Made by a program: the position numbers and the translations under genes. Below, piece after piece: positions 48,937 through 64,000 of a stretch of DNA of 64,000 bases; the stretch's first letter is position 1, and the number at the start of each line of letters is the position of its first letter. Origin of the DNA: Hyphomicrobiaceae bacterium (lineage in GTDB: Bacteria; Pseudomonadota; Alphaproteobacteria; Rhizobiales; Hyphomicrobiaceae); assembly GCA_016793635.1 (NCBI GenBank), contig JAEUMD010000001.1, forward strand, positions 222,375-286,374. Reading direction: 5' to 3'. The notes below the pieces were generated by a model. The model worked only from the letters and a program-made list of their open reading frames with translations. It did not search any database and had not been told where the DNA came from.

Positions 48937-49864
48937 CATTCCCAACTATCAGACCCTCATGTTGCCCGTCCTTCGACATGCCGCCGAGGGCGAGGTCACC
49001 ATTCCCGCCATCATCCCCAAGCTCGCGACCGAGTTCCAACTGACACCCGAGCAACTCACCGAGCGGATTCCCAGCGGCGGCTTCCCCGTGCTCAATAATC
49101 GCGCGCACTGGGCTAAGACCTACATGGTCAAGGCGGGCCTCGTCGAGCAAGTACGGCGGGGCGTCTTCAAGGCAACTGATCGCGGTCGGCAGCTCCTGGT
49201 CACGAAGCCGTCACGAGTCGACAATCGTACTCTCTCGCAGTTCGCCGAGTTCCGTGCCTTTACCGGGCGACATGCATCACCGACGACGGAAGCCTCCGAG
49301 GCGATTCTCGATGCCGTCGAGGAGACCAAGACACCGGCAGAGCGAATCGATGCCGCCATTCGCGAGATCGAGGCGGAAATCGAGGACGAGCTGATCGACC
49401 GCATCTTCGCTATCCCCAATCAAACCCAGCGTGCCGCCTTCTTTGAGGAGCTGGTCGTGCAGCTGCTCACGGCCATGGGATACGGCAAGGGGCTCGACGG
49501 TGCAGCGCGCCGCATCGGTGGGAGCGGGGATGGCGGTGTCGACGGCGTCATCCACCTGGACGCACTCGGTATTGACCGGGTGTACATCCAGGCCAAGTGC
49601 TACGAACCTCAATCCTCTGTGCCCGAACGCGAAGTTCGCGACTTCTCTGGAAGCCTCGACTCAAAGAAGACGACACGCGGAGTGTTCATCACCACTGCAA
49701 AGTTCTCAGGTCCATGCAGGACCTATATCGAGAGCATTCACAAGCCCATCATTCTTATCGATGGCCGCGAGCTCGCTCGCCTGATGCTGCGCTACAACGT
49801 CGGTGTCCGCGAAGACCGCGCCGTCGTCATCAAGCGCATCGACGAGGACTTCTTCGAGGCTTGA
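48929..49864 (+). CDS. mrr: Mrr-like restriction endonuclease
   Basis: A 311-residue nuclease. The N-terminal winged-helix Mrr_N domain (PNYQTLMLPVLRHAAEGEVT, then WAKTYMVKAGLVEQVRRGVF) is followed by the catalytic PD-(D/E)xK domain: GSGDGGVDGVIHLDALGIDR (Asp) and VYIQAKCYEPQSSVPEREV (Q-A-K). The methylase stop overlaps its start by eight bases (ATG at 48929), so they are one operon. It may be the cutting partner of the methylase or a methyl-dependent type IV nuclease. It ends with UGA at 49862-49864, the last gene in the window using UGA as stop with any certainty. Confidence 0.88.
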   Translation: MPDIPNYQTLMLPVLRHAAEGEVTIPAIIPKLATEFQLTPEQLTERIPSGGFPVLNNRAHWAKTYMVKAGLVEQVRRGVFKATDRGRQLLVTKPSRVDNRTLSQFAEFRAFTGRHASPTTEASEAILDAVEETKTPAERIDAAIREIEAEIEDELIDRIFAIPNQTQRAAFFEELVVQLLTAMGYGKGLDGAARRIGGSGDGGVDGVIHLDALGIDRVYIQAKCYEPQSSVPEREVRDFSGSLDSKKTTRGVFITTAKFSGPCRTYIESIHKPIILIDGRELARLMLRYNVGVREDRAVVIKRIDEDFFEA

Positions 49865-49974
49865 GATCGGAGCAAACGGCGCCGGTCAGAGCCGCTCTCA
49901 CATTCTCTTCTCTTTCATTTGCATTCGCCGCCGCTATGCATAGAATGTCAGTGTTATCCTATAACTATTGCATC
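49865..49974. other. Junction between standard-code and UGA=Gly DNA
   Basis: The 110 bases between the mrr stop and the first recoded gene contain no repeat, tRNA or insertion-sequence end that I can see. A TATAAC box at 49960-49965 lies 9 bases before the ATG of the recoded ParA gene and would suit a leaderless promoter. Either an assembly join or a true insertion end lies here. Confidence 0.6.
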
Positions 49975-50583
49975 ATGACCGTGTTTTTCTACTCGATCAA
50001 ATGAGGGCAGGGTAAGACGACGCACGCTGTCGGCTACGCCAAGCATTGCGGCGGCGTGCTCATCACCAATGACCTCGATAATGGCACCGCCGACATCTAT
50101 GAGGCGGCTCTGCCATGAGGACGCATCGCTACGCTCCAGCCATGACAAGCGCTGAAGACCGTTGCCACCCGCTTCAAAGGCAAGCCGCTGGTCTTCGACT
50201 TTTGAGGCTTCGTTGAAAGCCGTGTGATTGAAGCCGCGCAGATGGCCAATATCTGCGCCGTACCGCTCTCCTACCAATCGACCGCCGACCTCATGCCTGC
50301 CGTGAAGACCGTAACTGCACTGCAGCCGCACTGCGCGAGAATCATCATCCTCATCAACAACACGTCTCCTGAGCACGTCGCCGACCTGGAGCACATTCTC
50401 CGCCAGCGCTTTCCCAAGGTCGCAGTCTTCGTGGTCAACCACTCCCGCTACATCTCACGTATCGCCGACGACGGTCTGACGGTCTTCGAAATTGCCGAAC
50501 TCGGCGGGCTGGAGCGTCATCAGCTCCGACACATCCTGCCGCAGATTGAGACGCTTTACGGCTACCTCGACCTACACAGCTAG
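49975..50583 (+). CDS. parA: ParA-like partition ATPase, UGA read as glycine
   Basis: A 202-residue protein only when UGA is a sense codon (in-frame UGA at 50002, 50116, 50143 and 50203; true stop UAG at 50581). The first UGA is the first Gly of the deviant Walker A: SIK[G]GQGKTTHAVGYAKH. Others give ALP[G]GRIATLQP[G]QALK and the Walker B-like LVFDF[G]GFVES. Later parts (CAVPLSYQSTADLMPAVKTV) match small plasmid ParA proteins. Trp or Cys in Walker A would destroy the site, so Gly is the only sensible reading. It starts the cluster ParA - small protein - Rep - iterons. Confidence 0.9.
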
Positions 50584-50612
50584 GCAGCACCTATTCCTTA
50601 ACCGAATACCTT

Positions 50613-50891
50613 ATGAAAAAAGACATCCTGGCGAAGGCCGTTCGCCTCGCCGACAAGACCAAAGCAAGACCAGAAAAAGTCGTGATCGCCAAGCCGGCGT
50701 CTCACCTCTTCGTCAAGAAGCCTGCCGCGCAAGTGCTCAGCGAAAGGCTCTACACGCGCCTGACCAAGGCCGAGAAGAAGCGCCTCATGGCGACCATCGG
50801 CGAGATGTTCCCAATCTCGGAGTTGCTTCGCGACCTCGTTATCCAATACCTCGATAAAAAAGACGCCGAAAATGGACGCAAGAAAATCTAA
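50613..50891 (+). CDS. Small basic protein between ParA and Rep
   Basis: A 92-residue protein, very basic at its N terminus (MKKDILAKAVRLADKTKARP) with a helical C-terminal half (LTKAEKKRLMATIGEMFPIS, ELLRDLVIQYLDKK) that looks like a helix-turn-helix. By position it could be the ParB-like centromere-binding partner of the ParA, or a copy-number regulator. It contains no UGA; its stop is UAA. The leader has the TTAAC-N10-ATG motif of this segment and no Shine-Dalgarno. It overlaps rep by 20 bases. Confidence 0.7.
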   Translation: MKKDILAKAVRLADKTKARPEKVVIAKPASHLFVKKPAAQVLSERLYTRLTKAEKKRLMATIGEMFPISELLRDLVIQYLDKKDAENGRKKI

Positions 50892-52044
50892 GTCCGAGGG
50901 TCTCGTCCCGGCAAGTCAGCAGCCCGCTCAGCTCGAACTTTTCCGCCTCGTCTCCGACGACGCCTACACCAACGCTTTCGACTTTTACGAGTCTATTCCG
51001 CGCTTCATGATCGCACGCTGAAACGCATCGACCGTGAAATGGAACCCGGACGGAACCGCCGCGCCGCTCAAGCGCGAGTTCACCTACCAGTCGAAGCGCT
51101 ACAAGCTCACCCTTGCTCCCGCCTATGTCGACCAGCCGAACGGCGACCTCCGCGCCGAGTTTCCGTGAGTGAAGGAGGAGGTGCTCGAATGGGTGCTGAT
51201 GAAGCTCGCCATCGACAAGGGATATTTTACCGATGGCGGCGACGGGCGACCGACATCGGACTCTTTCGTTCTCTTCACCTCGATCCATCGCATCGCCGAA
51301 GAGCTCAAGAAGCGTTGAACCAACCGCGACAAGGCGAAGGCCTACTCCTACGACCAGATCCGCGAAGGGCTCCAGGTGCTCGCCAAGACCAAGATCCATC
51401 TGAGAAGCGAGACCGACGACGACGACCTCGTCTTCTCGCCGATCGCCGACCTCGGCTATTTCAACGACAAGAAGTCCCGCGACGCCGCCAAAGCGACCGT
51501 CTACATCCGCTTCAACACTCTCATCTCCCAGGCAATTCTTTCGAGATCCTGGAGACAAATAAATTACGAGCGCGTCATGGGCGCAGACCTCTACCTCGTG
51601 CGCTGGCTCACCAAGATGCTCAGTCTCCGCTTCGTCTACGCCGCGCCGTCCAAAACCTACAACATCAAGCTCTCGACCATCATCGAGAACTCCGGCGTCA
51701 CCCTCTACGACCGCTTGTCCGACAATTTGAAGCTCGTCGAGCACGCATTATCGGAGATGACCGACATCGTGGCCCGCTACACGATCGAAAAGCAGATCGT
51801 GCGCAACGAACTCCAAGGCAAGGGCCGCATTCTTGCCGACGCCAAGATCGTCATCCGGCCAACGACGGCGTTCACCATCGAGCAAATGAAGACCAACGTG
51901 CACGAGAACCGCCTCGACAACGCTCGCATTGCAGAGGATTGAGACGTGATAACCGAGCCGAGACGCGAGGACTTCGCCAGCTTGTCCGACTACGAGAAAG
52001 CGAAAGCTGCGTTCCAGAGCAGCCGAACCATCGAGGAGCTATAA
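50872..52044 (+). CDS. rep: Plasmid replication initiator (RepB/Rep_3-like), UGA read as glycine
   Basis: A 390-residue initiator. In-frame UGA at 51019, 51166, 51316 and 51940 are read as Gly (IAR[G]NAST, FP[G]VKEEVLEW, KKR[G]TNRDKAKA, AED[G]DVITEP); the stop is UAA at 52042. The central part, with SRSWRQINYERVMGADLYLV followed by RWLTKMLSLRFVYAAPSKTY, resembles the winged-helix initiator family that binds iterons. It is immediately upstream of eight iterons. Start ATG 50872 overlaps the preceding gene, which suggests translational coupling. Confidence 0.82.
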
Positions 52045-52056
52045 CCCCACCTTGAG

Positions 52057-52087
52057 AGTGCCACGACGCATGTCAGGGCACTTTTTT
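52057..52087 (+). terminator. Rho-independent terminator after rep
   Basis: AGTGCC and GGCACT pair with a 14-base loop, followed by six T. It starts 12 bases past the rep stop. Confidence 0.75.
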
Positions 52088-52148
52088 CGTCCCTCAGAGG
52101 CTGGTCCGTCGCCCGATATGGAATGTTAAAAACTCCCCTGAAGAGCAC

Positions 52149-52482
52149 TACGTTTTGGTTCCCCGACACTCGCCGTTTTTCCTACGTTTTGGTTCCCCGA
52201 CACCTGAGATGGGCTTCCTAACCGTTGACATTTTTCGGTGTTGCACGTCTGCCAACTACGTTTTGGTTCCCCGACACCATCGAAAATCTACGTTTTGGTT
52301 CCCCGACACCATCCGCATCCACCCTTTTGTTGAGTTTTTGACATCGAAACCTACGTTTTGATTCCCCGACACCGTTGTCTTCCTACCCTCACCGACGTTT
52401 TGGTTCCCCCATACTCTGCAGTTTACCTACGTTTTGGTTCCCCGACACTCGCCGGTTTTACTACGTTTTGATTCCCCGACAC
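52149..52482 (+). repeat. oriV: Eight 21-bp iterons, candidate plasmid replication origin
   Basis: Direct repeats of TACGTTTTGGTTCCCCGACAC begin at 52149, 52183, 52257, 52289, 52352, 52394, 52428 and 52462. Copies 5 and 8 have GATTCC for GGTTCC; copy 6 is degenerate (GACGTTTTGGTTCCCCCATAC). Spacings are 32-34 bases or about twice that (63, 74) with one of 42, so most copies sit on one face of the helix. AT-rich spacers such as TTGAGTTTTTGACATCG would suit an opening region. Position directly after rep is classic for theta-replicating iteron plasmids. Confidence 0.92.
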
Positions 52483-52846
52483 CCCCACGCGCGTGGCTTG
52501 CCGCCCGACGCATCACGTTCAACACCCTCTTTCTCACCCGCTTCTTTAGCCTTTACTCTTTTTCTTAGTCTGGTGCCGCACCTGAATGTCAAAAAGGTCG
52601 AGGAACCAATGAAGACACTTGCGTATGAAAAAGAAAACAGCCCGCCTGCGGTGGTGATGGCGAGTATTGCGCGGTGTCTCGAATATAAAGTGGTGGCCCG
52701 CGGAATCGAGGCGGACTGTTTTCTTTGGAAAGAGGCGCGGCAAGGCCGTGCCCCAGGAATTGGCGCAGAATTATTTGACAATCCCAGAATATCATTAGGA
52801 TTGGAATTGCAGCGGGGTATTCACTCGAACCAAATGAGGTGCTGCA
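52483..52846. other. Region after the iterons, one doubtful ORF
   Basis: About 360 bases. A frame from ATG 52609 reads MKTLAYEKENSPPAVVMASI and ARCLEYKVVARGIEADCFLW, continuing past the start of the next gene to a UAA at 52951. The overlap of over 100 bases and absence of a family make it doubtful. Repeated AAAGGTCG/AAAGAGGC stretches are not structured. Confidence 0.35.
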
Positions 52847-53050
52847 ATGGCCAAGGAAACCCCAAAAGCCAAACCCGACTACCACGTCCTCTTAGTCGAG
52901 GAACGGGAGGGGAAAGACCCCTACTGGTGGAAAATCGGCGCCGCTTGGGCTAATAAAGACGGAAAAGGATACAACGTCGAGTTCATGACGCCGAACGGCA
53001 AAGCCCGTTTCGTGTTGCGTGAGCCTTCCGAGGATTCCAAATCGTCTTGA
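52847..53050 (+). CDS. Small conserved protein, apparent UGA stop
   Basis: A 67-residue protein: YHVLLVEEREGKDPYWWKIG, AAWANKDGKGYNVEFMTPNG and KARFVLREPSEDSKSS. The W-I-G ... KDGKG-N pattern occurs in small proteins carried by proteobacterial conjugative elements. Unlike its neighbours it has a Shine-Dalgarno (GAGGTGCTGCA). Its natural end is UGA at 53048-53050; if UGA is Gly the frame continues 25 codons to UAA at 53123, through the hairpin GCCACCTCC/GGAGGTGGC. It may be a recent import from a standard-code host. Confidence 0.7.
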   Translation: MAKETPKAKPDYHVLLVEEREGKDPYWWKIGAAWANKDGKGYNVEFMTPNGKARFVLREPSEDSKSS

Positions 53051-53129
53051 CCCCAGGTGGAATTCCTCATTCCACTCGCCACCTCCCCTCCAAAAGGAGG
53101 TGGCATCCCTATTACTAATTAAATAACAT

Positions 53130-53450
53130 ATGAACCAATTACCCAAGGCAACCAACAAAGCTCTGAACCTCATTGATGCGGTCGAAAAACTTGCCGATCG
53201 TTGTCCACAAGACGGAATGGTCCTCGACGACTACAGAACGGAGGTGACAACCAAGCTTGCAGCCCTTATGACGCAACTTCCGAAAGACCTGGGAGCGACC
53301 GAGGGCGGCCACGACCGCTTCGAGCTCGAACACATGGTCGAGACTGCGGCAAGTCTTCCCTCGAACGCGGAACTGCGTGCGGCACTCGAAGACATTGTCG
53401 GCACAATCGATTGTCTGGTCTTCTTGCCGAAGTCAAAAGTGTTACACTAG
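53130..53450 (+). CDS. Unknown protein, 106 residues
   Basis: A soluble helical protein (TNKALNLIDAVEKLADRCPQ, FELEHMVETAASLPSNAELR). No family is recognised. No UGA; the stop is UAG. The leader CTAATTAAATAACAT-ATG carries the motif of this segment. It is followed after 3 bases by the next gene. Confidence 0.65.
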   Translation: MNQLPKATNKALNLIDAVEKLADRCPQDGMVLDDYRTEVTTKLAALMTQLPKDLGATEGGHDRFELEHMVETAASLPSNAELRAALEDIVGTIDCLVFLPKSKVLH

Positions 53451-53453
53451 GGC

Positions 53454-53801
53454 ATGAGCAAGTTTGCTCCAGAGCGCATCGAACAGAATCTCGTCGCGCA
53501 GACCGAGGCGCTCCTGTGCCGGATCGAAGCGCGTGCCAGCAGGCTTTCGGACATCCAAGATGCTAGCGCCTTGATGATGCTCGTCGGTCAGGTGCTCGAC
53601 AATGTCTCGGCGCTCACCGGAGAAACCAAGCACGATCGCGAGAGGTATCGCATCTGCAGCGTCGAGGCCGACTACCTTTTTTCCGGCCCGCTGGCCCTCT
53701 CACACAAAAACCGCGTGGCTATTCAAAACCATATGCACGATTTTGCGGCAAGCATCCGCTCAACGCTCAATCCGCCTAAAGATGACGACATCCCCTTTTA
53801 A
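53454..53801 (+). CDS. Unknown protein, 115 residues
   Basis: A soluble helical protein (FAPERIEQNLVAQTEALLCR, MLVGQVLDNVSALTGETKHD). No family is recognised. The stop is UAA and there is no UGA. It forms an operon with the preceding gene and ends at the bidirectional terminator at 53811-53848. Confidence 0.65.
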   Translation: MSKFAPERIEQNLVAQTEALLCRIEARASRLSDIQDASALMMLVGQVLDNVSALTGETKHDRERYRICSVEADYLFSGPLALSHKNRVAIQNHMHDFAASIRSTLNPPKDDDIPF

Positions 53802-53810
53802 TTATCACGC

Positions 53811-53848
53811 AAAAAAGTAGCCCACCCGATCAGGTCGGCTACTTTTTA
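53811..53848. terminator. Bidirectional terminator between convergent genes
   Basis: AAAAAAGTAGCC and GGCTACTTTTT flank a 14-base loop, so a hairpin with a U-run is made on both strands. It separates the plus-strand pair from the minus-strand H-NS-like gene, whose stop codon (UAG, 53839-53841) lies inside the right arm. Confidence 0.85.
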
Positions 53849-54159
53849 TTGATCAGGAATTTGGTGAGCGGCGCGCCATCGTCGAGCTTTGACTGCAGCC
53901 AGCCAGGAACGCGGCCCTTGCCCGACCAGGTGTGAGACGGATGAGCCGGATCGGCATACTTCGCCGGCAATGGCTGAGGTTTCGGCTTCACTTTGGTGCC
54001 AAGTACCTCGAGGGCCGAGAAGCCTTCATCCTTGAGCCGCGTCTCGAACTCGTTTCTGAGCTCGAGCCGGCGCTTTTCGCGCGTCTCCTCACGCACACTC
54101 TGAGCCTTGGCAATCAAAGCATCGAGTTCCGAAACCGTCATGCGCTTCAAATCGGACAT
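53839..54159 (-). CDS. hns: H-NS-family DNA-binding protein
   Basis: A 106-residue nucleoid protein. The N-terminal helices (LKRMTVSELDALIAKAQSVR, REKRRLELRNEFETRL) are an oligomerisation coiled coil. The C-terminal DNA-binding domain is typical of H-NS: YADPAHPSHTWSGKGRVPGW, then LQSKLDDGAPLTKFLI. Plasmid H-NS proteins silence AT-rich incoming genes; the AT-rich operon at 55.4-59.9 kb lies 1.2 kb away. The stop is UAG and there are no UGA codons. H-NS is a proteobacterial family, so its presence points to gene flow between the segment's past hosts. Confidence 0.88.
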   Translation of the reverse strand: MSDLKRMTVSELDALIAKAQSVREETREKRRLELRNEFETRLKDEGFSALEVLGTKVKPKPQPLPAKYADPAHPSHTWSGKGRVPGWLQSKLDDGAPLTKFLINKK

Positions 54160-54253
54160 GGCTCTTCAAGCCCTCTTTGTTGGTTGATGGCCATTTTTAT
54201 CGCGTGCCTGCATGGCAGGGAAACAGCCCATCTGCTCCAATGCGTCTCAGCGG

Positions 54254-55201
54254 CTATGAATCGTTTGAAGGTGCTGCGGATTGCTGATGGCCGAGGGCCA
54301 CCCACCATTCATTGAAATCCTTGAAGCCTTCATACAGCGGCGATCGATCCACGGCGTTGCGATGACCAAGCTCACGCTGCAGCCAGCGTGTAACGGTGCG
54401 GCCAGCTTCGTCGCGGTCGAGATAAAGCACGATGCGGCCGAAGCCATGAGTGTTGATGGCATGGAAGGCGCGCGCCTTGAGCGATAGCGAATGCAGAATG
54501 ATGACCGCGCAGTCGGGCTCGGTCAGCTCGCGCATCGCGAGCCAGCTCAAGAAGTCATACGGCCCCTCGAACACCGCCACGGTGCCCTTGTCGGCGAAGT
54601 TGATTGTGCTGATGTCCTTGCCCTTGCCGACGAACCCCTTGAACACCGGACTTCTGGCGTCAACTCCTTCGCCGCAGGTAAAGCCGAGCGCGAAATACGT
54701 CTTGGGCTTGCCGGGTGCCCTGAAGCGAATTTCTTTCAGCCATTGGCTCGCAAGTGGCTTTGATATGCAACGCGCAAAGAGATACTGCCACAGCGCCGGA
54801 TGCACGATTGGACCGCTGTCGACGATACTGAAGCTGCGGTCTTGTTCGTTTTCTTTTTCATCCGCAGGGGCCCCGCGATTTTCGAGCAGACTGCGGGTCG
54901 CCGCTGGCACAGTTCCGGCAAAGCCAGACTCCAGGATGGCGAGCGCCTCCTTGACCGACACGCGGCACATCTCGACCACGAGGTCGATAACGTTGCCGCC
55001 GCGCGCGACACCGTGGTCGAACCACAAGTTCTTGACCGTATCGACTTTGAACGACGGCGTCTTGTCGCCTTCGCGGATCGGACTCGAGTACCACAGCTCA
55101 CGACCGTTGCGAGTTATCTTCGCGGGCTTGATGCTGTGGCGCTCCAGATAGAGCGGAATCGGAACCTGACGGGCTTGGTCGGCACGCATGAAAGCTGGCA
55201 T
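54254..55201 (-). CDS. Toprim-domain DNA primase-like protein
   Basis: A 315-residue protein. An N-terminal CHC2-like part (WYSSPIREGDKTPSFKVDTV, KNLWFDHGVARGGNVIDLVV) is followed by a Toprim catalytic domain (KGTVAVFEGPYDFLSWLAMR, with Glu, and FGRIVLYLDRDEAGRTVTRW, with DxD). Zinc-binding cysteines of the classical CHC2 are missing. It would prime plasmid replication. The frame opens at 55219; the ATG at 55201 (MPAFMRADQ) is preferred. The stop is UAG. Confidence 0.85.
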   Translation of the reverse strand: MPAFMRADQARQVPIPLYLERHSIKPAKITRNGRELWYSSPIREGDKTPSFKVDTVKNLWFDHGVARGGNVIDLVVEMCRVSVKEALAILESGFAGTVPAATRSLLENRGAPADEKENEQDRSFSIVDSGPIVHPALWQYLFARCISKPLASQWLKEIRFRAPGKPKTYFALGFTCGEGVDARSPVFKGFVGKGKDISTINFADKGTVAVFEGPYDFLSWLAMRELTEPDCAVIILHSLSLKARAFHAINTHGFGRIVLYLDRDEAGRTVTRWLQRELGHRNAVDRSPLYEGFKDFNEWWVALGHQQSAAPSNDS

Positions 55202-55212
55202 TAGGAAATACG

Positions 55213-55229
55213 CCTCCATTGTATGGAGG
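55213..55229. promoter_or_regulatory. 17-bp palindrome upstream of the primase gene
   Basis: CCTCCAT-TGT-ATGGAGG is a perfect 7-bp inverted repeat 12 bases before the primase start. It would be an operator, or pair the ribosome site GGAGG in the leader. Function is inferred from position only. Confidence 0.5.
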
Positions 55230-55270
55230 AAGCCGCGTTCTCCAAATCTATCTGCTGAAGACGGGAGAGG

Positions 55271-55349
55271 GACTCGCCTGCTTACCGATTGTACGCCAAC
55301 CCGCAGCCCGTCAAGAACCGCGGTCTCTCAGGGCGTCTCACGCCGCGCT
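55271..55349 (+). repeat. 79-bp direct repeat, left copy
   Basis: This copy matches 60055-60133 at 69 of 79 positions without gaps, with a 38-bp perfect core at 55287-55324 (starting GATTGTACGCCAACCCGCAG). The two copies bracket the two-gene AT-rich operon exactly. Neither copy contains an obvious transposase gene. Confidence 0.9.
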
Positions 55350-55407
55350 CAAGATGAAAGGCCATATTTCAAAAGCTCTTGCCTGTAGCGGCTCGGCTTG
55401 ATCGAAA

Positions 55408-56046
55408 CTAGAGGGACGGTCCGCCGTCTAACTCTCTGCATGGGTGTGAAATGGTTCCAATGAAGGTGTTGAAGTTAAAGTCGGTGCAGCTATCAGGTCA
55501 TCAAAAGCAGATGGGATCGTAAGGTAAATCATACTTTGGGTACGCAAAATATCATTGTGGGTACTTGGCAATATATTTTTTTGATTCCAAGCGAAAACCA
55601 AAAATAAATCACACGCCATTTCCAGGATATCCCTTGAATCAGCTGGTGCCAGACAAATAATAACAGTTTAGTTTCGGTCTAATATTGGCGTTGAAATTCC
55701 TGTTGAATGAATTTAATCCAGCAATCTCGTATTCCCATTTTTGTTTTCAACCCAAAATCTTCTTTACGATTTCCAGTTGCTGGAAATTGTATTCATCTAT
55801 TGCGATGTTTTCCTCCTCGGTTCTGCTGTTCGGCTCTCTTTCTGTATTGGGGTAGAACTTTACACTAGCTTCATACGCCTTCACCCACTGTTCCATGTGT
55901 ATAGCTGCTTCGTTTGCGGCAATCTCTTGAGCTTTGTTACGAACTCCTTCTTGCCGTGTTCCTATTGATTTCAATGTTCACAAGACAACTACTATGATAG
56001 CAATCAAGCCGAATAGCAAGCGGTGCCACAGTTTCAGTTTTTTCAT
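55408..56046 (-). CDS. Membrane-anchored unknown protein, UGA read as glycine
   Basis: A 212-residue protein that exists only with UGA as sense: about seven in-frame UGA codons (for example IIVVVL[G]TLKSIG, KILG[G]KQKWEYE and PICF[G][G]PDSC), stop UAG at 55408. One N-terminal membrane segment (LWHRLLFGLIAIIVVVL) is followed by a short coiled coil and an aromatic-rich extracellular part (FAYPKYDLPYDPICF) with cysteines, suggesting a disulphide-bonded surface protein. It starts 4 bases after the giant gene, so the pair is an operon and it may help the giant protein's export or display. No family is recognised. Confidence 0.75.
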
Positions 56047-56050
56047 AGAG

Positions 56051-59000
56051 TTATTTTTTCTTAGATTGTATATTTCAGAAGTTCTTGCCGGTTGCAATTC
56101 ATCCATTTGACAGTGCAACGCTATATGTGAGGCTCATAGGGCTAGTTCCTTCCCAGTTCTGATGAGGATTCTCCATCACCTTGTACGTTCACGCGGCGAG
56201 AGAATTGAACTCGTAGTATCACTGGTTGTTTGTGACTTGAAACGGTTCACTACTGTGTTGCAGCTCTCAGTCGCTGTTCTGGTCGATGAAGATGGTCCAT
56301 CCAGCCATTACGTTTTCTCATGCGTCCTTGAGTCCATTCTTGTTCGCATCTGCATACACGTATCCGCTTATTTTTCCACTGTATGTCTCTGGCGCGTCGG
56401 TGAGCGAAAAGGTCTTTGTCTTCACCCCTTCTATGTTTCCAAACTTGTCTACCGAATAGAAGGTCAGCGTATAGGGTCACAGTCAATTAACGACGATAGG
56501 CGCCGTGTAGGGAGTGAAAGTTGGTGTGTAGTTATTGAGGGTGTAGTAGGTTCTGTACACGCCAGTTCCGTTGGTGTTGTCGGTGGCGCTCAACGTGATG
56601 GTCGCTGTTTCTACGTACGAATTCGCTTGGTTGGGGTTCACCGTTCAAGCAAGCGTCGCTACCGTAGTAGGAGCAACGATGTCCTCGAGCACCGATGAAA
56701 AATTGGAGATGGTCTCGTAGCTGCCGTTGTTGTCAGTATCGACTCCATAGCTCACGGCGTCGCTCGCGTTTTGCGCGACCTTTGCCCAATCTATCATGTA
56801 CTGTTGTGGTTGAGGAGCAGCACCGACCGCATGGATATACACTGTCCCAGTCCCGTCATTGTGGAAATTATCGACGAGAAGATTGTAGTTTCCAGTCTTT
56901 GATGCGTCGAAATCTATGCTCACCGAAGTGCCGGTCGTTGTGAACGTGTCGACTTGGCCGGAACTTGTTTGTACGCTCTCTAATGTCGTAAAATAGTCTC
57001 ATCCAGAAATCATCAGATCGTACTTCTCATCTGTAGTCCCACCGACATGCACTGTGAGGTCTTGCTTTTGTGGCAAGTACAGATGCCTCCAAGAACTCTC
57101 TCAAGATAGTCCATCTATAGTGGCACTGAGGGGCCTTGTAACTTGTACTCATGGAACCTGCTCAAAGATGTCGCCACCCTTAAAACCAGAGATTCTTCAA
57201 AGGCTGTCCGTTACGTACATATCAGATGAGCCAGACAGAGCGTATGCAGCATCGGTGTTGTTTAGTCCTACGGTCGGAGTGGGCTTTTGGTTTCACGCAT
57301 ATATGTCGTCAACATCAACAAGTGCAAACGTGTCGAAAGAAGTCCAGTGGTTAGCTGCATACAATGGCATGAGAACACCACCTGTTTGTGTAATCTCGAT
57401 ATACTGTTGATATGCAGGAAACTCCTGTCATCTATTTGGAAACTGGATATTGTTATCCCAAATATATATTCGATTACTCTCTATCTTATACGGCACCACT
57501 GCATGCCCGGCTGCTTCTAATTCGTTGGTGACAATTGGATCTCAAGTGTTTGTGTGAATGACCTTCTTTGCCTTTCACCAGAATTGCAAGATATAGGTCT
57601 TGTCAGGGTTCTGTTCCAAGATGTTTCGTATAGCTACAATACTCCCTGTTTGAACTATTGGGGTACGAGTGGTTCCGAATTGTGATAACTGGAACGCCAG
57701 AAGCGATTTCATCTTGACGTCATCATATACCGTCCAACGCGATCAATCGTTGTTGCTTGGGATTGCGGTTACCCCATCCCATATATGGTGGGATCCCATG
57801 AGTGAACTCAATCAATTATAATACGAATCGATGAAGTTAGGGTGCTTGAATTCCATTGCCGCTGATGCCGCCATACCATAACAAGCTCAATTACTGAGGG
57901 CTTCCGTTTGGTTTAATCCGAGTGCTTTAAATGCATCATTGAGCTTCGTTTGATTTGCAAATCATAGTGCATTGTTCGCAAAAGAGGTATCAAAGGCATT
58001 GTAGAAGATGTCCCATTTGTTTCAATCGGTATAGTTTCGGTGGTAATATGGAAATGTCGCATTGAATGATGAGGTTGTTCCACCATTCAGTATCGACCCC
58101 GTCAATCCTGCGTTGTTGAAACGGTACCCGTACGGATATGGTTCAAATCCATTGAAGATGCTGAAGTTTGTCTCGTTCGGAGAAAACTCAATGGCACTAT
58201 CAGCGCCAGCCGTTTTCACCTTCCAGTGGTAGTCTCCCGCAGGTAACTCACCTATCGGTATCAAGACTTTCCCTGTTCCTGTTGTAAACGTATCGGTCAC
58301 AGCCGTTGCGACAAGTCCGCCTGTTCCATAGACCTCGAATGAAAGCGCTATTGGGGTTTGATTTGAGGCATCTATGATTGCGCTCAGCGTCACGCCTGAC
58401 CCAGCCTGATAGTAGCCAATCTTGGTTCCCGCAGGAACAATCTCTGTGCTCAGAAGCGGACTCTGTATTGACTGCGTGAGATTCGTCGGAGTCGGAAGGG
58501 ACGAAGCGATGCATGGCTCCATATTGATGCAGTGCGTCGCACTTGCGGCCGACTCTAGAGTCCCGTTCTCTCCTACAACATGCCACGTTGCACCGGTTTG
58601 CGAGGTTAGAAGCGCTTGAGGGAGCTGATACTGAGATGTTTGCCCGAGTGCTGGGAGCTGCCCTGAGAGGTAAACTCGGTACTGCGAGTATCCTACTATG
58701 GGGTACACGATGTAGGTTGGGACCGCGCTATAGAGCCCGTTGAGCGAATTGAAATCGCCACTGAGTTTCAGATAGGTCAGATACGGAGTGACGGTTCCGG
58801 TGTTCAACACGTTTCCATGGACGGTCAGTCACAATCGATACCAGCCATCACCGGTGGCGTCCGAAACGCCCAACGTTCATTGGTTCGTCAGGTCTCAGTT
58901 GATCGTCAGCGCGTAAGGATAGTATATCGAATCGCCGGTGAGTGTTGCACCAGAGAGGACAGTGAGGTTCCCGTTCAGCTCAGAGGCGTAGTTGGACAGT

Positions 59001-59944
59001 CAAACAACCGTGTCGCCGTCAACGTACACGTTGTTTATGGTGTTGGTTCACGCAATGCGTCATGAGACGTAGACGTTTTTTGCGCTGAATACATGATCAA
59101 TCGTGGTCGCGTGTATCGTCTCGAAGTTGGTGACTATTTGTTGAAGAGAACGTGCCGTCACCTCTGCTCATGTTCCAGAGGGGTCTGCGATGATGAATCC
59201 GGGCGTGTCGGAGTTATAGCTTCCGATGACATCTCAGAGAGAAAGCGTTTTCGTCGTATCGAGATGCATGGTGTGCCCATCAAGATTGGTTCGCCACCCA
59301 CTGACGAAGTCGGACAGCACCGTGATGTCCGACTGAAAAAAAAGGGTTCCATGACAGTTCGGAGTTCACTGGAGCATTCTCTGCGTTTGTCCACCAGACA
59401 GAATGAGCAACGACGTCGCATCACAGGTTGCGCTTTGACTATTCTGAACGCCTCAGTTCACTCGGATGGTTGTCGGAGATGCGGCACTTCCATAGGAACC
59501 GTTGTTCGTGAAGTCGCCCAAAACGCTCACATTCTGGATGTGCGCAGCAAGCGTTCAGTTGTTTGTGAGGTTCCCCTCGACTCTGAGATTGAGCCCTTGA
59601 AAGTAGGGCGCGATGTATTCGGCTTGCCCGATCATTCCGTCGTTTTCCAGATCTCAGGTCGTTGTAATGAGGAAGCTTGCTGACTCGGTATTGATATCCT
59701 TTGCCAAGTGTCAGGAGCTTGTCACGGAGAGGCCAGTGAGGGTGATGTTCGATGCCACGGAAACGAGAGAGTTGATCTCTACGGTATCGCTTGCAGACGG
59801 AATCACGCCTTCAACCCATGTTCCCGTACTCGTCCAAAGTCACCCGCTCACGGTCGAGTGAATGGTCGGGCTCAGAGCAAAGGTCGGAACGACGAAAAAT
59901 GAACAGAAAGCCATGACTGCCAAACGGGATCGTATGTGCTTCAT
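56051..59944 (-). CDS. Giant secreted surface protein with cysteine-peptidase-like and SdrD-B domains, UGA read as glycine
   Basis: A 1,297-residue protein with about 36 in-frame UGA codons and no UAA or UAG before 56051. A signal peptide (MKHIRSRLAVMAFCSFFVVP, cleavage near TFA) is followed by a beta-helix-like region (residues 25-400) rich in N-G-T/D turns (LTNN[G]TLAAHIQN, IN[G]DLTNQ[G]TLG). At 641-850 there is a papain-like pattern: SN[G]ACYGMAASAAMEF (Cys about 688), then EAAGHAVVPYKIES (His about 814), then RIYIWDNN (Asp about 830). Ig-like parts and a final SdrD-B repeat (GYVYADANKNGLKDA[G]EN, NNQ[G]YYEFNSLAA[G]TYKV) end it. AT-richer than its surroundings, likely acquired. The peptidase role is inference. 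Confidence 0.85.
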
Positions 59945-60054
59945 AGGAAGGTGTTAGAAAATAGTATTATATTTATATTCGCTTCCCCAAATTAGTCAAA
60001 AAAACAGCGTGCTATGCCTCTTGCAAGGAGCCCTTGAGTGATTGTTTGGGTGGG

Positions 60055-60133
60055 GGCTCGCCTGCATCTTGATTGTACGCCAACCCGCAGCCCGTCAAGA
60101 ACCGCGGTTTTTCGAGGCGTCTCACGTCGCGCT
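60055..60133 (+). repeat. 79-bp direct repeat, right copy
   Basis: Same orientation as 55271-55349; the perfect core lies at 60071-60108. It sits just upstream of the giant gene's start. A shorter match (GATTGTACGCC) recurs at about 61,565, which may be a third, decayed copy. Confidence 0.9.
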
Positions 60134-60253
60134 GACGCGCCCGGCATCAGGCACATCCGAACGGTTCTGGACTGGCAGCTTAACCGGTTGGCGTTTGCCA
60201 GGAGTGCAGGCAGCACCCGCTGACCGGCATTTTACACTCTAACTTTTCGACAT

Positions 60254-60769
60254 ATGCCGAACTGGAATTACAACAGCGTGGAGATCCACGCACCCATCGA
60301 AGCCGTCATGGAGCGGCTCGTACCGACGAAGGAGAAGACCTTCGCGTTCAACATGCACAAGCTCTTCCCCGAGAATATCCCGGCCGACGATCCGACCGGC
60401 AACAAGACCTGGAACTACGACTGGTTCGTCGACAACACCGGCTCCAAATGGGCGCCCGAAGTTATGGTGAGTGAGGGCGACGATGATCTGACGTTTTTGA
60501 ACTACGACAGTGCCTGGACGCCAAACAACGGCACGCTAGAACGTCTCCACGAGATGACCGGCTGGACCATCTGTAACGACTACCGCGAGGAGGGCATGCA
60601 ATTCGCCGGCAGGTTTACCTGCGATGGCAGAAACTGTCGCGACGAGGAACTCGAATATCTGACGATCTGCGAAATCTGCGAGGAGGAAAAGCCGGAGGAC
60701 GAGTACGACGAGGAACTCGACGGACTCATCTGCAACGAATGCCGCGCCAAGGCCAAGCTTATTTCCTAA
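60254..60769 (+). CDS. Api92-like protein with C-terminal zinc ribbon (copy 1)
   Basis: A 171-residue cytoplasmic protein starting MPNWNYNSVEIHAPIEAVME, the start typical of the Api92-like ferredoxin-fold family found on phages and plasmids. The C terminus holds two CxxC pairs (LTICEICEEEKPED and LICNECRAKAK), a likely zinc ribbon. There is no UGA; the stop is UAA. The leader is TCTAACTTTTCGACAT-ATG with no Shine-Dalgarno. It is followed by a paralogue 12 bases on. Confidence 0.8.
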   Translation: MPNWNYNSVEIHAPIEAVMERLVPTKEKTFAFNMHKLFPENIPADDPTGNKTWNYDWFVDNTGSKWAPEVMVSEGDDDLTFLNYDSAWTPNNGTLERLHEMTGWTICNDYREEGMQFAGRFTCDGRNCRDEELEYLTICEICEEEKPEDEYDEELDGLICNECRAKAKLIS

Positions 60770-60781
60770 CCCAACACGACC

Positions 60782-61300
60782 ATGACCAACTGGACCCAAA
60801 ACCACGTCGATATCGACGCGCCGCTTACCGAGGTCAAGAAGTGGCTCGTACAGCCAAGTGACGGAAGACGGATGTTCAACATGCACATGCTCTTCCCTGA
60901 CTGCCACCCGAACAGCGATCCGGCCTGGGAGAACGTCTCTGACGAAGAAGGTTTCATGTGCCGCACAGGCTCGACCGTTCTGCCGGACCTCGACTTCGAC
61001 GACGTAGGCACCCGATATACGACCTTGCACTACGAGACGGCACGGGCGCCCAATACTCTGCTGTTACGGGAGCTGCACAAACTGACCGGACGGCACATCG
61101 ACTGCTTCTACGAAGACCCTTGCGGGGACTTCGAGGGAACCTTCGTCTGCAAGGACGGAAACCTCCGCAACGAAGAGTGGCGTTATCAGCCTCACTGTGA
61201 CCTTTGTGGTCAGAAGAGACCTCAGAGCGCGTACCGAAACTGGGTGAACGACTGCGTTTGCCGAGACTGCGAACGCGCGTCAGCGCATTCGAGTTGATAG
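60782..61300 (+). CDS. Api92-like protein with C-terminal zinc ribbon (copy 2)
   Basis: A 172-residue paralogue of the preceding gene: MTNWTQNHVDIDAPLTEVKK at the start and CDLCGQKRPQ ... CVCRDCERA at the end. It is terminated by UGA UAG (61295-61300); if UGA is Gly the protein ends HSSG. The pair probably arose by tandem duplication. It ends just before a strong terminator. Confidence 0.8.
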
Positions 61301-61320
61301 TTTTCCTTGGGCATCATCAC

Positions 61321-61351
61321 GAGCCGGACCATCAGGTCTGGCTCTTTTTTT
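61321..61351 (+). terminator. Strong terminator after the Api92 pair
   Basis: GAGCCGGACC and GGTCTGGCTC pair over 10 bases with one G-T wobble and a 4-base loop, followed by seven T. It lies 20 bases after the second Api92 stop. Confidence 0.9.
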
Positions 61352-61761
61352 GTGCTTGCCCGCTGTGGGTCACGAGTCCGCTTGGCACGAACCTGCGCCG
61401 CTCGGACGCCTTCGCTCGCCGCTCGTCCCGCTCCCTCACGTCCGCGGTGCCGAGACGATCTCGCTTCTCCGCTTGGTGCCGTTCGATGACCGCCCTTGCG
61501 GCCCTAAATCCGGGTCGCCCGCTGTCGCAACCGCTAACACGTTAGACTGATCAATCCTTCCAGGCGATTGTACGCCCGGACACCTGATGCCGAACCTGAT
61601 GCATCCCGAAAGTAAAGCACCGCGCCAACTAGCGGCGCACGCTGACGCTCTCATCACGATACCACAGGCGAACGGATGCTTGACTGTCGGGCTAACCGGG
61701 CGTGACTGGAGGGAAGGCTTTGACCAACAGAGCCAATTTTATCTTCTAACTTTTCTTACCT
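61352..61761. other. Intergenic region, no gene supported
   Basis: About 410 bases. The short open frames (for example 61436-61657 minus) have no leader motif and no domain pattern. At its right end TTGACC and TTCTAAC, 18-19 bases apart, look like the -35/-10 boxes of a leaderless promoter for the gene at 61762. Confidence 0.5.
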
Positions 61762-61923
61762 ATGCCCACACAAGAGCAAGTCCTCAGGATGGCAACGTCA
61801 TTTGCGAATGCCTACATCGAGGAGCACGGCTATGAAGGCCTCGGAGAGCGGGGCTTCGACGAGCTGGTCGATAGCTTCAGCGTCATCGTCGAGGCGAACC
61901 ACGAGCAGCTCTGCTTCGAGTAG
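61762..61923 (+). CDS. Small unknown protein, 53 residues
   Basis: Reads MPTQEQVLRMATSFANAYIE and ends NHEQLCFE with UAG. It is acidic and helical. It is accepted because of the leader TTCTAACTTTTCTTACCT-ATG, shared with its neighbours, and because the same architecture (short acidic helical protein) repeats in the two following genes. No family is recognised. Confidence 0.6.
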   Translation: MPTQEQVLRMATSFANAYIEEHGYEGLGERGFDELVDSFSVIVEANHEQLCFE

Positions 61924-62015
61924 CCACGACCGACCCGAGCTCCACTGCCATCAGGGGCTCGGCATCGGTGGTTCAGGGTTCAGATGGCAACTACTTATTT
62001 TCTAATTTCTTACCT

Positions 62016-62345
62016 ATGAAGAATATGACCACGCTCAGGCACATCGCCGGGCTGTATCTCGATATCTACAGCACACCACGCGACCTCGAACGACCGCTCA
62101 CACCGGAGCAGGTCAAGGATGCCGGTGTTTTCTTCCTTGATTTACTTGCGGCCCACGAAGCTGAGGCTCTCATCGAGCAAGAGCGCGACGCACGTGCAAC
62201 GCTCGTTGCGGAACCAGACTACCGCGACCTGGTCAATCAGTTCATCGAGAAATTCGAGCGAGACGAGGGTATCACCGAACTCTCGGAAGACCAGATGCGG
62301 GACGCTGGCGACCTCTTCCTCTCGCTTGCCGCCGAGCATCTTTAG
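62016..62345 (+). CDS. Small acidic helical protein, 109 residues
   Basis: Reads MKNMTTLRHIAGLYLDIYST, then LTPEQVKDAGVFFLDLLAAH, then LSEDQMRDAGDLFLSLAAEH. The pattern LTPEQ(V)xDAGxxFLxLLA occurs twice, so it contains an internal duplication. The leader is TTCTAATTTCTTACCT-ATG. The stop is UAG. It is related to the next gene by the H/F-R-x-A/C-LYLDxY start. Confidence 0.65.
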   Translation: MKNMTTLRHIAGLYLDIYSTPRDLERPLTPEQVKDAGVFFLDLLAAHEAEALIEQERDARATLVAEPDYRDLVNQFIEKFERDEGITELSEDQMRDAGDLFLSLAAEHL

Positions 62346-62362
62346 TTTCTAACCAACGACTT

Positions 62363-62653
62363 ATGAACCACGAATTCAGCTTCAGGCGCTTCGCCTGCCT
62401 TTACCTCGACGCCTACTGCGCCGACCACGTGCAACGCCAGGTCTTGAGTGAAACGCAAGTCACCCAAGCCCGGGCTCTCTTCCATGAGTTCCTTGCAGCG
62501 CTGGACGCCCCGGTCCTCGTGACCGGCGAGACCGTGTCGAAGAACACGCGACACGTGCTGTGCGCCGCTCGCAACCTCAGGTGCTTCGTCGGACAGTTCG
62601 CCCGAGATTTCCTGGGATACAGCGACATCCGTAAGCGCCGCTCATCGAAGTAG
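62363..62653 (+). CDS. Small helical protein, 96 residues, related to the previous one
   Basis: Reads MNHEFSFRRFACLYLDAYCA, then LSETQVTQARALFHEFLAAL and RCFVGQFARDFLGYSDIRKR. The first half aligns with the previous protein (GLYLDIYST / CLYLDAYCA; PEQVKDAGVFFLDLLAA / ETQVTQARALFHEFLAA). The leader TTCTAACCAACGACTT-ATG again lacks a Shine-Dalgarno. The stop is UAG. Confidence 0.65.
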   Translation: MNHEFSFRRFACLYLDAYCADHVQRQVLSETQVTQARALFHEFLAALDAPVLVTGETVSKNTRHVLCAARNLRCFVGQFARDFLGYSDIRKRRSSK

Positions 62654-62668
62654 CATCGGCAGCACCTC

Positions 62669-62690
62669 AGGCACCACTCGGTGCCTTTTT
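62669..62690 (+). terminator. Rho-independent terminator upstream of the methylase gene
   Basis: AGGCACC and GGTGCCT pair with a 4-base loop, followed by TTTTT. It ends the row of small genes and separates them from the methylase. Confidence 0.85.
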
Positions 62691-62711
62691 AATTACCTAA
62701 ACCATTTACCT

Positions 62712-63653
62712 ATGAAACCAACATACAAACTCGTTCAAACGGCCCAGGTAGCAACATGTAAAACTTCGGCTCAGACCGCTCAAATACTTGCACCGCTGAT
62801 GGCGGCAGCCGCTCAGACCATGAGGCTCGGCGATAGAAAACCGGTAATCTCGGTAAGGCCGTCAACGACCACGAAGCGCCCGACAGGACCGATACACAGA
62901 ATTGTCCACGGCGAATGCCTGGAGATGATGGCCAAGATACCCGACCACTCCATCGACTTCGTCTGCGCCGACTTCCCGTACAACATATCGGGAAAGGGCG
63001 GGCTCACCATGAGCTGAAGCCAGCTCATCAAGGCCGACTTCGGAGACTGGGACAAGTTTCCTTCAGAAGAGGCCTATCTCGACTTCGTGTTCAAGGTCTG
63101 CACCGAGTACCGCCGCATCCTCAAACCGTATGCCAGCATGGTGCTGTTCTTCGGATACCGCCACGCCGGATGGATTGCCCACGAGCTGCAAAGACGCGGG
63201 CTCTTCACGTTCAGAATGCCGCTCATCTGGGTCAAGGATAACCCACAGCCGAGCTACAAGAAGACCAGCTTCAGAAGCGGCTATGAAATGGGGCTCTGGC
63301 TCATCAACGACGGGGCGCAGTACGCCCAGCCGAAGACGTTCAACTTCCTGACACAGGCCCGCATGTGCAACGTCATGAGCTACCTCATCGGCCGCGACGG
63401 CTATAAGCGCACGCAGCATCCGACCGAGAAGCCTGAGTTGTTGACGCGCAGGCTCGTCGAAATCTTCACCGACGAAGGCGACGTCGTACTCGATAACTTC
63501 GCTGGTGGCGGAACCACAGGCGTGGCCGCATTCAAGGCCTGACGCAACGCCATCTCCATCGAGCGCGAGGCGAAATACATCGCCATGATCGAGAAGCGCC
63601 AGAAGGCGGTCGAAGCGCGCTTACGAGACCAGAGTAACAGAGAAAGGGCTTAG
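62712..63653 (+). CDS. Solitary DNA adenine methyltransferase, UGA read as glycine
   Basis: A 313-residue beta-class N6-adenine methylase. Motif IV is DFVCADFPYNISGKGGLTMS, followed by [G]SQLIKADFGDWDKFP. Motif I lies near the C terminus: GDVVLDNFAGGGTTGVAAFK, then A[G]RNAISIEREAKYIAM. The UGA at 63540 falls on the invariant Gly of the G-R-x-x-I-x-I-E motif; the other is at 63015. The stop UAG is at 63651 inside its terminator hairpin. No partner nuclease is adjacent, so it is probably a protective or regulatory methylase of the plasmid. Confidence 0.9.
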
Positions 63654-63661: not shown

Positions 63662-64000
63662 CGTGATTGCAGGTCGAGAGGCCAGCGTCTTTTTCTTTTT
63701 CACCCGCACACGTCCAGAGTGTCCATGAGCGCGTTTGAAAGCGGTTGAATTGCCGTGAAACGTGATGACGCGAGTTGAGCCGATAACGTCAAGCCAAATG
63801 CGCTAACTCGCTTTGACAGCAGGAACGCGGTCAATAGAGTGACAGCAAGACCGTTCGAAGTGCGTGGTTGCAAGATAGCGTTTTCGGGGCGAATGCCGCG
63901 AAAGTATTCGGGCCGAAAGTCCCGAAACATTTCACCCCGAAACAGTCAGAACTGTTTGGGCCGAAAACGCATCTTGCCAAGGCCAGCCCTGGACCCGTCC
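63662..64000. other. Region rich in inverted TTCGGGGC/GCCCCGAA elements
   Basis: About 340 bases with no supported gene. GCGTTTTCGG at 63878-63887 is inverted at 63961-63970 (CCGAAAACGC). Between them lie further TTCGGG/CCCGAA elements, and AACAGT/ACTGTT at 63941-63956. It could be a second replication or recombination site, or a complex terminator. Confidence 0.4.

Follow-up and report, generated by a model that had tools for sequence, protein, structure and literature searches.

In which genetic code is the end of this contig written, and from what kind of cell does it come? The window considered here, the whole stretch of 64,000 nucleotides that was analysed, covers contig positions 222375-286374 of JAEUMD010000001.1 in an assembly assigned to a Hyphomicrobiaceae bacterium (GCA_016793635.1; a genome bin of 26 contigs totalling 3.82 Mb, with a completeness of 95% and a contamination of 3.46%). 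Its segment at 49975-63653 carries genes on both strands with in-frame UGA codons. Our comparisons with homologous proteins confirm that UGA is decoded there as glycine (genetic code 25). In our view the segment is probably part of an iteron plasmid that assembly has joined to a standard-code contig. Its host would be a cell reading UGA as Gly, most probably one of the Patescibacteria, of the Absconditabacteria/Gracilibacteria type and near the top of the range of guanine-plus-cytosine content (GC) of these groups.

UGA as a glycine codon

The 16 genes of the segment comprise 3836 codons, including 55 in-frame UGA and 228 GGN, with not a single inner UAA or UAG. The initial annotation had counted 53 in-frame UGA in five genes, and that count is exact: 36 lie in the gene at 56051-59944 (minus strand), seven in the one at 55408-56046 (minus strand), four each in the ParA and Rep genes and two in a methylase gene. 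Two further genes with one UGA each bring the total to 55. For the gene of 1297 codons, base composition predicts 43 UAA plus UAG and 20 UGA; inside it there are none of the former and 36 of the latter. As had been proposed, UAA or UAG is the real stop, in 16 of 16 genes; for the nine without an inner UGA, whose stops do not depend on the code assumed, UGA is never the terminator, whereas it ends 10 of the 11 long open reading frames (ORFs) checked in the rest of the window.

In a window as rich in GC as this one, chance alone keeps many readthrough frames open, and the argument must come from homology. The proteins were compared with fetched relatives by tblastn, with an X placed at each UGA, and 31 sites had aligned residues. 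Over these sites Gly had the highest mean BLOSUM62 score (2.03), followed by Ser (0.61), Asn (0.33) and Ala (0.06); the control, 89 true Gly codons in the same proteins, gave 2.27 for Gly, 0.17 for Ser and 0.21 for Asn. We have relied on the sum over sites because Gly is the single best residue at only 15 of the 31, and several sites (ParA X48 and X57; Rep X50 and X357) lack Gly conservation. Other sites are much clearer. The UGA said to supply the first Gly of the ParA Walker A motif (X10) does stand opposite G in all four homologues, and X77 in three of the four. Similarly, the two UGA assigned to the SdrD-B signature of the surface protein face G in 11 of 11 (X1242) and 9 of 11 relatives (X1252). 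The comparison that had been suggested with a standard-code protein at 10.2-11.8 kb of the window bears out an SdrD_B domain in both, and that protein was the sole other place returned when the bin was searched with the recoded surface protein. The supposedly invariant Gly of the methylase has less behind it than had been stated: of 80 viral relatives, 53 have N opposite X276, 16 have G, 10 have K and one has R, and the other UGA of this gene (X101) is mostly opposite E, making it the weakest of the genes for glycine.

It is very improbable that UGA is read as some other residue (Trp, Cys or Ser) or is suppressed in a standard-code host. Ser and Asn do come second and third, as they partly do at true Gly codons, but Gly keeps a lead of 1.4 per site; neither Trp nor Cys is among the six best residues, and both are rejected by these scores, and the start signals and composition of the segment are unlike those of the bin's own genes. 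The chance that these are accidental open frames or pseudogenes is negligible, for all the frequency of open readthrough frames in the window, being refuted by residue-by-residue homology over UGA sites in four genes.

Read with the standard code, ParA would stop after 9 residues and Rep after 49. Since UGA thus occupies ParA codon 10 and Rep codon 50, the segment is tied to a UGA=Gly cell, and the plasmid would be confined to such cells. The use of UGA is uneven: UGA:GGN is 43:105 in two AT-rich cargo genes and 12:123 in the other fourteen (p 2e-5), a skew that could reflect either a rise of UGA as GC falls or a later arrival of the backbone. Two places look, from their sequence, like former UGA stops that are now read through: the UGA-UAG end of the second Api92-like gene, and codon 68 of the ORF at 52847, which is followed by a tail with a hairpin.

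Gene content of the segment

The features of the segment are as follows; functions throughout are predictions.

49975..50583, plus strand: putative ParA-type partition ATPase, 202 residues; four UGA (codons 10, 48, 57 and 77), the first Gly of KGGQGKTT being a UGA
50613..50891, plus strand: small ORF, 92 residues, between ParA and Rep, as at the same place in Nitrosospira and Acidithiobacillus plasmids; no match in Pfam or NCBIfam
50872..52044, plus strand: putative Rep initiator, 390 residues; four UGA (codons 50, 99, 149 and 357); relatives on plasmids
52148..52486, plus strand: eight iteron-like repeats CTACGTTTTGGTTCCCCGACAC downstream of rep, with start-to-start distances of 34, 74, 32, 63, 42, 34 and 34
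52847..53122, plus strand: ORF, 91 residues; one UGA (codon 68)
53130..53450, plus strand: ORF, 106 residues; no UGA, no family match
53454..53801, plus strand: ORF, 115 residues; no UGA, no family match
53839..54159, minus strand: H-NS-like nucleoid protein, 106 residues; no UGA; PF00816, E 9.5e-13
54254..55189, minus strand: DnaG-like CHC2 plus Toprim primase, 311 residues; no UGA; PF13155 and PF01807; 41.9% identical to a protein of the Sulfitobacter sp. S223 plasmid
55269..55349, plus strand: first copy of an 81-bp direct repeat, beside the AT-rich cargo; 88% identical to copy 2
55408..56046, minus strand: protein of 212 residues with a hydrophobic N-terminus; seven UGA; no family match
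56051..59944, minus strand: putative surface protein, 1297 residues; 36 UGA; signal-like N-terminus, OmpL47-type domain at 1110-1180, SdrD_B at 1191-1266
60053..60133, plus strand: 81-bp direct repeat, copy 2; 88% identical to copy 1
60254..60769, plus strand: Api92-like protein 1, 171 residues; no UGA; PF18406, E 5e-5; 46.6% identical over 73% to a protein of the Sulfitobacter sp. S223 plasmid
60782..61300, plus strand: Api92-like protein 2, 172 residues; tandem paralogue of the preceding; terminates with UGA-UAG
61762..61923, plus strand: ORF, 53 residues
62016..62345, plus strand: ORF, 109 residues; paralogue of the next
62363..62653, plus strand: ORF, 96 residues; paralogue of the preceding
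62712..63653, plus strand: putative adenine-specific DNA methylase, CcrM type, 313 residues; two UGA; PF01555, E 1.8e-37; NF050803, 147 bits (cut-off 830)

The initial annotation called this content plasmid-like, and rightly so: a Rep of a plasmid family, an array of direct repeats adjoining its gene and a partition gene, the attributes of an iteron plasmid, are all present. ParA matches 18 plasmid records and its profile search of the PDB leads to ParA/ParF, while the NCBIfam ParA_partition model scores it weakly (19 bits against a cut-off of 180). For Rep, tblastn returned 1297 plasmid records, each below 60% identity (25-30% in the 15 rows listed); no Pfam family scored above its cut-off, and a PDB search with the Rep profile found nothing. 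An Rfam search gave no match. No integrase family turned up in the proteins searched, each library covering part of the 16 ORFs. We also rejected a phage identity: no phage structural gene was found among the 10 of 16 proteins compared with PHROGs, within the 14 kb of the element that are visible. Two tandem pairs of paralogues stand in the segment, the Api92-like proteins (34%) and the ORFs at 62016 and 62363 (33%).

In such a plasmid, Rep acting on the eight iterons would start replication, ParA with the small ORF would partition the copies, the Toprim primase would prime synthesis, and the H-NS-like protein and the adenine methylase would act on the plasmid DNA. The cargo between the 81-bp repeats, the proteins of 212 and 1297 residues, is probably destined for the cell surface; to the eye, the middle of the larger one resembles a Cys/His/Asn peptidase. 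Their genes have the lowest GC of the segment (0.41 and 0.49) and the most UGA, and the repeats bracket them as if the cargo were an inserted cassette.

Relatives of the plasmid backbone

Two standard-code plasmids with a different gene order, Sulfitobacter sp. S223 plasmid unnamed2 (NZ_CP083562.1, 25.7 kb) and Octadecabacter arcticus pOA238_118, resemble the segment in their ParA (23-24%) and Toprim primase (42-43%). The former shares the Api92-like protein as well (41-47%); it also has a Rep and a methylase gene of its own, but neither matches that of the segment at E 0.01. Since this one plasmid holds relatives of ParA, the primase and the Api92-like protein together, the backbone appears to be a mosaic of known proteobacterial plasmid parts. 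The Rep is 28-31% identical to those of Methylomagnum, Nitrosospira, Acidithiobacillus and Desulfosarcina plasmids; Nitrosospira multiformis plasmid 1 and Acidithiobacillus pACF1 even share the order ParA - small ORF - Rep. These plasmids differ from the segment in using the standard code and, by eye, Shine-Dalgarno-type leaders. Because the backbone, with its distant relatives mainly on plasmids of proteobacteria, resembles proteobacterial plasmids, the plasmid was probably taken up from proteobacteria and recoded later.

Viral contigs searched with Rep, the cargo protein, ParA, the primase and the Api92-like protein held no relatives, and the iteron pattern led to none either. The methylase found 259 viral relatives, of a common family and at best 30% identical. 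A scan of viral contigs for a UGA within the P-loop gave four matches, all in short frames and judged to be chance.

Among mobile elements recoded in the same way, the code-25 phage RSA-ATP1 of Strigamonas methylophilicida is, in the accessible part of its description, a tailed phage with its own tRNA-Gly(UCA) (PMC13059738), unlike our segment, which has none. Among groundwater plasmids linked to the Candidate Phyla Radiation (CPR), 17 of 664 were assigned to Patescibacteria (PMC12023590); a recoded plasmid does not seem to be described there, since neither "Gracilibacteria" nor "genetic code" occurs in the text of that paper available to us. The literature covered, with most subscription journals and all preprints outside its scope and some sources available in part, thus knows recoded phages and CPR plasmids but contains no UGA=Gly plasmid.

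Start signals

The genes of the segment also seem to begin differently from their neighbours. Pairing with the anti-Shine-Dalgarno sequence at or below -4.5 kcal/mol is found for 2 of its 16 genes versus 9 of 16 in the rest of the window (two segment starts were off by one base in this scoring). Only the H-NS gene and the ORF at 52847 have Shine-Dalgarno-like leaders, and both are without the motif [CT]CT[TA]0-2AA that lies 8-24 bases upstream of the start in 11 of the 16 segment genes and in none of 16 neighbouring genes; farther upstream it does not occur, and in 2000 random draws it reached at most 3 of 16. It also precedes genes free of UGA: the small ORF, the primase, Api92-like protein 1 and three small ORFs. 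On the Sulfitobacter plasmid a permissive form precedes 5 of the 20 annotated genes (11/16 vs 5/20, p 0.017); those for ParA, Rep, the primase and the Api92-like protein are not among them. Applied mechanically to all ORFs of the segment, most of which are not genes, the motif was found in a fraction of 0.07 of the 55 called.

Such a YCTAA-type box could act as a promoter from which leaderless messages are made, or as an initiation signal of a new kind. The choice of the 16 starts was partly by eye and the regular expression was composed after viewing the leaders, which makes the odds too favourable; since both were settled with the data in view, and the motif was not seen in the few loci of Patescibacteria that were tried, it remains a lead.

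Which cell

In the part of the report available, a Codetta screen of 250,000 genomes has UGA=Gly in Absconditabacteria and Gracilibacteria only (PMC8629427). The cargo points to Patescibacteria: at E 1e-6 the 1297-residue protein has matches in 48 of 379 Patescibacteria genomes versus 6 of 298 genomes of the bin's phylum, the bin itself excluded (Fisher p 9e-8). None of the Patescibacteria matches listed has an inner stop. A host in the Absconditabacteria/Gracilibacteria is likely.

Several observations weigh against this attribution. Most of the cargo-protein matches span only the C-terminal SdrD_B part (the C-terminal third), a common domain, and one covers the N-terminus. The Rep profile, which works in that it recovers the window's own copy with its four UGA, has no match in the 379 Patescibacteria genomes and matches two genomes of the bin's phylum besides that copy. 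At 0.537 the GC of the segment slightly exceeds the range of 0.21-0.53 reported for clades with UGA=Gly in the accessible part of the published survey (PMC8629427); the earlier remark that this is a high GC for such groups is correct without excluding them. The GC of a plasmid may depart from that of its chromosome. Starts called mechanically in the few Patescibacteria loci tried had the start motif in 0 of 12 cases and in a fraction of 0.11 of 9. The plasmid is presumed to be circular, yet the contig end does not overlap the segment start, so that this sign of circularity is absent. No tRNA-Gly(UCA) is present in the window, nor in the bin by one narrow pattern, the search of the source assembly that had been proposed; the segment, however, probably comes from another cell than the bin's. 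An absence of prfB had likewise been proposed as a check; the bin encodes four RF-1-family genes, and looking there is no test of the segment's cell. Finally, no UGA=Gly genome, and none of the Absconditabacteria or Gracilibacteria, was recovered for comparison: a strict UCA-tRNA pattern found none in 286 Patescibacteria (a weak negative, as it fails to match a known UCA tRNA of one of these genomes), and none appeared among the RecA rows listed. Of the origin given in the initial annotation, then, the UGA=Gly cell stands, and membership of the two groups is no more than likely.

These scans brought up some curiosities. A wider scan of genome contigs for tRNAs with anticodon UCA returned at least 117 stretches, of which 80 loci, mostly Mycoplasma-type records, were kept and 24 run through ARAGORN. 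The patescibacterium RA.bin82 (genome G001; locus L081, 2597-2671) has an anticodon-UCA tRNA with a Trp-like body (AGGGG...), the one missed by the strict pattern, and both its RF-1-family matches have one inner UGA; perhaps this is a case of UGA=Trp within the Patescibacteria. A similar tRNA occurs in a Candidatus Paceibacterota locus (L013). On an Elusimicrobia contig from a metagenome-assembled genome, with standard-code genes, there is a tRNA-Gly-like gene with anticodon UCA (L038, 275-346, minus strand), with two acceptor mismatches by eye. Among the RecA rows listed, an inner UGA was found only in one patescibacterium (G035; locus L126, 6467-7438), once, in an otherwise intact frame and by eye not at a Gly-like place; its other genes are apparently standard-code.

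Given these difficulties, could the cell belong to an undescribed lineage, outside the Absconditabacteria and Gracilibacteria and perhaps outside the Patescibacteria, that reassigned UGA to Gly independently at a fairly high GC? A backbone, H-NS and Rep of proteobacterial kind would suit this, as would the GC of the segment and the failure of Rep to match Patescibacteria. We nevertheless consider it unlikely: plasmid backbones cross phyla, the cargo protein points to Patescibacteria, and the Codetta screen met this code only in the two groups.

The junction with the standard-code contig

The two features that delimit the segment are:

49865..49974, no strand: junction interval, from the UGA stop (49862-49864) of a standard-code ORF, labelled Mrr-like endonuclease by eye, to the first codon of the recoded ParA
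64000..64000, no strand: end of the window and of the contig (286374)

The preceding 49.9 kb are standard-code, the 11 long ORFs examined there (up to 49864) stopping at UGA in 10 cases and UAG in one. The segment forms the terminal 14 kb of the contig, which breaks off inside it. Since window and contig end together, we regard the segment as a tail on a standard-code genome, to which assembly most probably attached it. Its tetranucleotide correlation with the rest of the window is 0.764, whereas 22 of the 24 readable contig starts of the bin give 0.91-0.98, and very probably it does not belong to the bin. That the bin's organism expresses these genes was rejected, as stops, starts and composition all differ. 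Two small contigs of the bin (C20 and C24) are also odd in composition (0.78 and 0.84 with the remainder of the window); no recoding was apparent in them under code 25. The contig that holds the bin's 16S gene (C25) is perhaps foreign as well: in its first 12 kb UAG is the stop of 7 of 9 ORFs, unlike most other contigs. Compared with the full-length matches listed from plasmid records, the 16S gene reaches at best 83% identity.

Alternatively, a plasmid of a UGA=Gly cell may truly have recombined into a standard-code chromosome, where its UGA-bearing genes would be dead. One contig does hold both parts, and the hosts of UGA=Gly epibionts are often Proteobacteria, according to the accessible part of one report (PMC13059738), which makes contact plausible. 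We find this improbable, since the contig terminates inside the segment, no repeat was seen flanking the junction, the segment and the rest of the window have no 18-mer in common, no integrase family was met in the proteins searched, and none of the frames shows decay.

Implications

A plasmid piece from a UGA=Gly cell, joined to this contig by assembly, is accordingly the reading that we prefer. A more speculative version, which we put forward tentatively, is that an iteron plasmid of proteobacteria made its way into a cell with UGA=Gly, that its own Rep and ParA were recoded there so that there was no return, and that it adopted a YCTAA-type box some 12-20 bases before the start codon in place of the Shine-Dalgarno sequence. 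Bolder still would be to place these events in a lineage so far not known to read UGA as Gly.

An altered code is expected to act as a firewall against incoming genes. A backbone of proteobacterial type whose replication and partition genes need the altered code would mean that this wall can be crossed and then shut behind the element. Such a plasmid could serve UGA=Gly bacteria as a vector backbone of natural origin; should the leader motif also hold for the chromosomes of these bacteria, it would be a clue to how they start gene expression. It is also a warning that recoded elements can hide in bins of ordinary-code genomes, fragmented by standard annotation.

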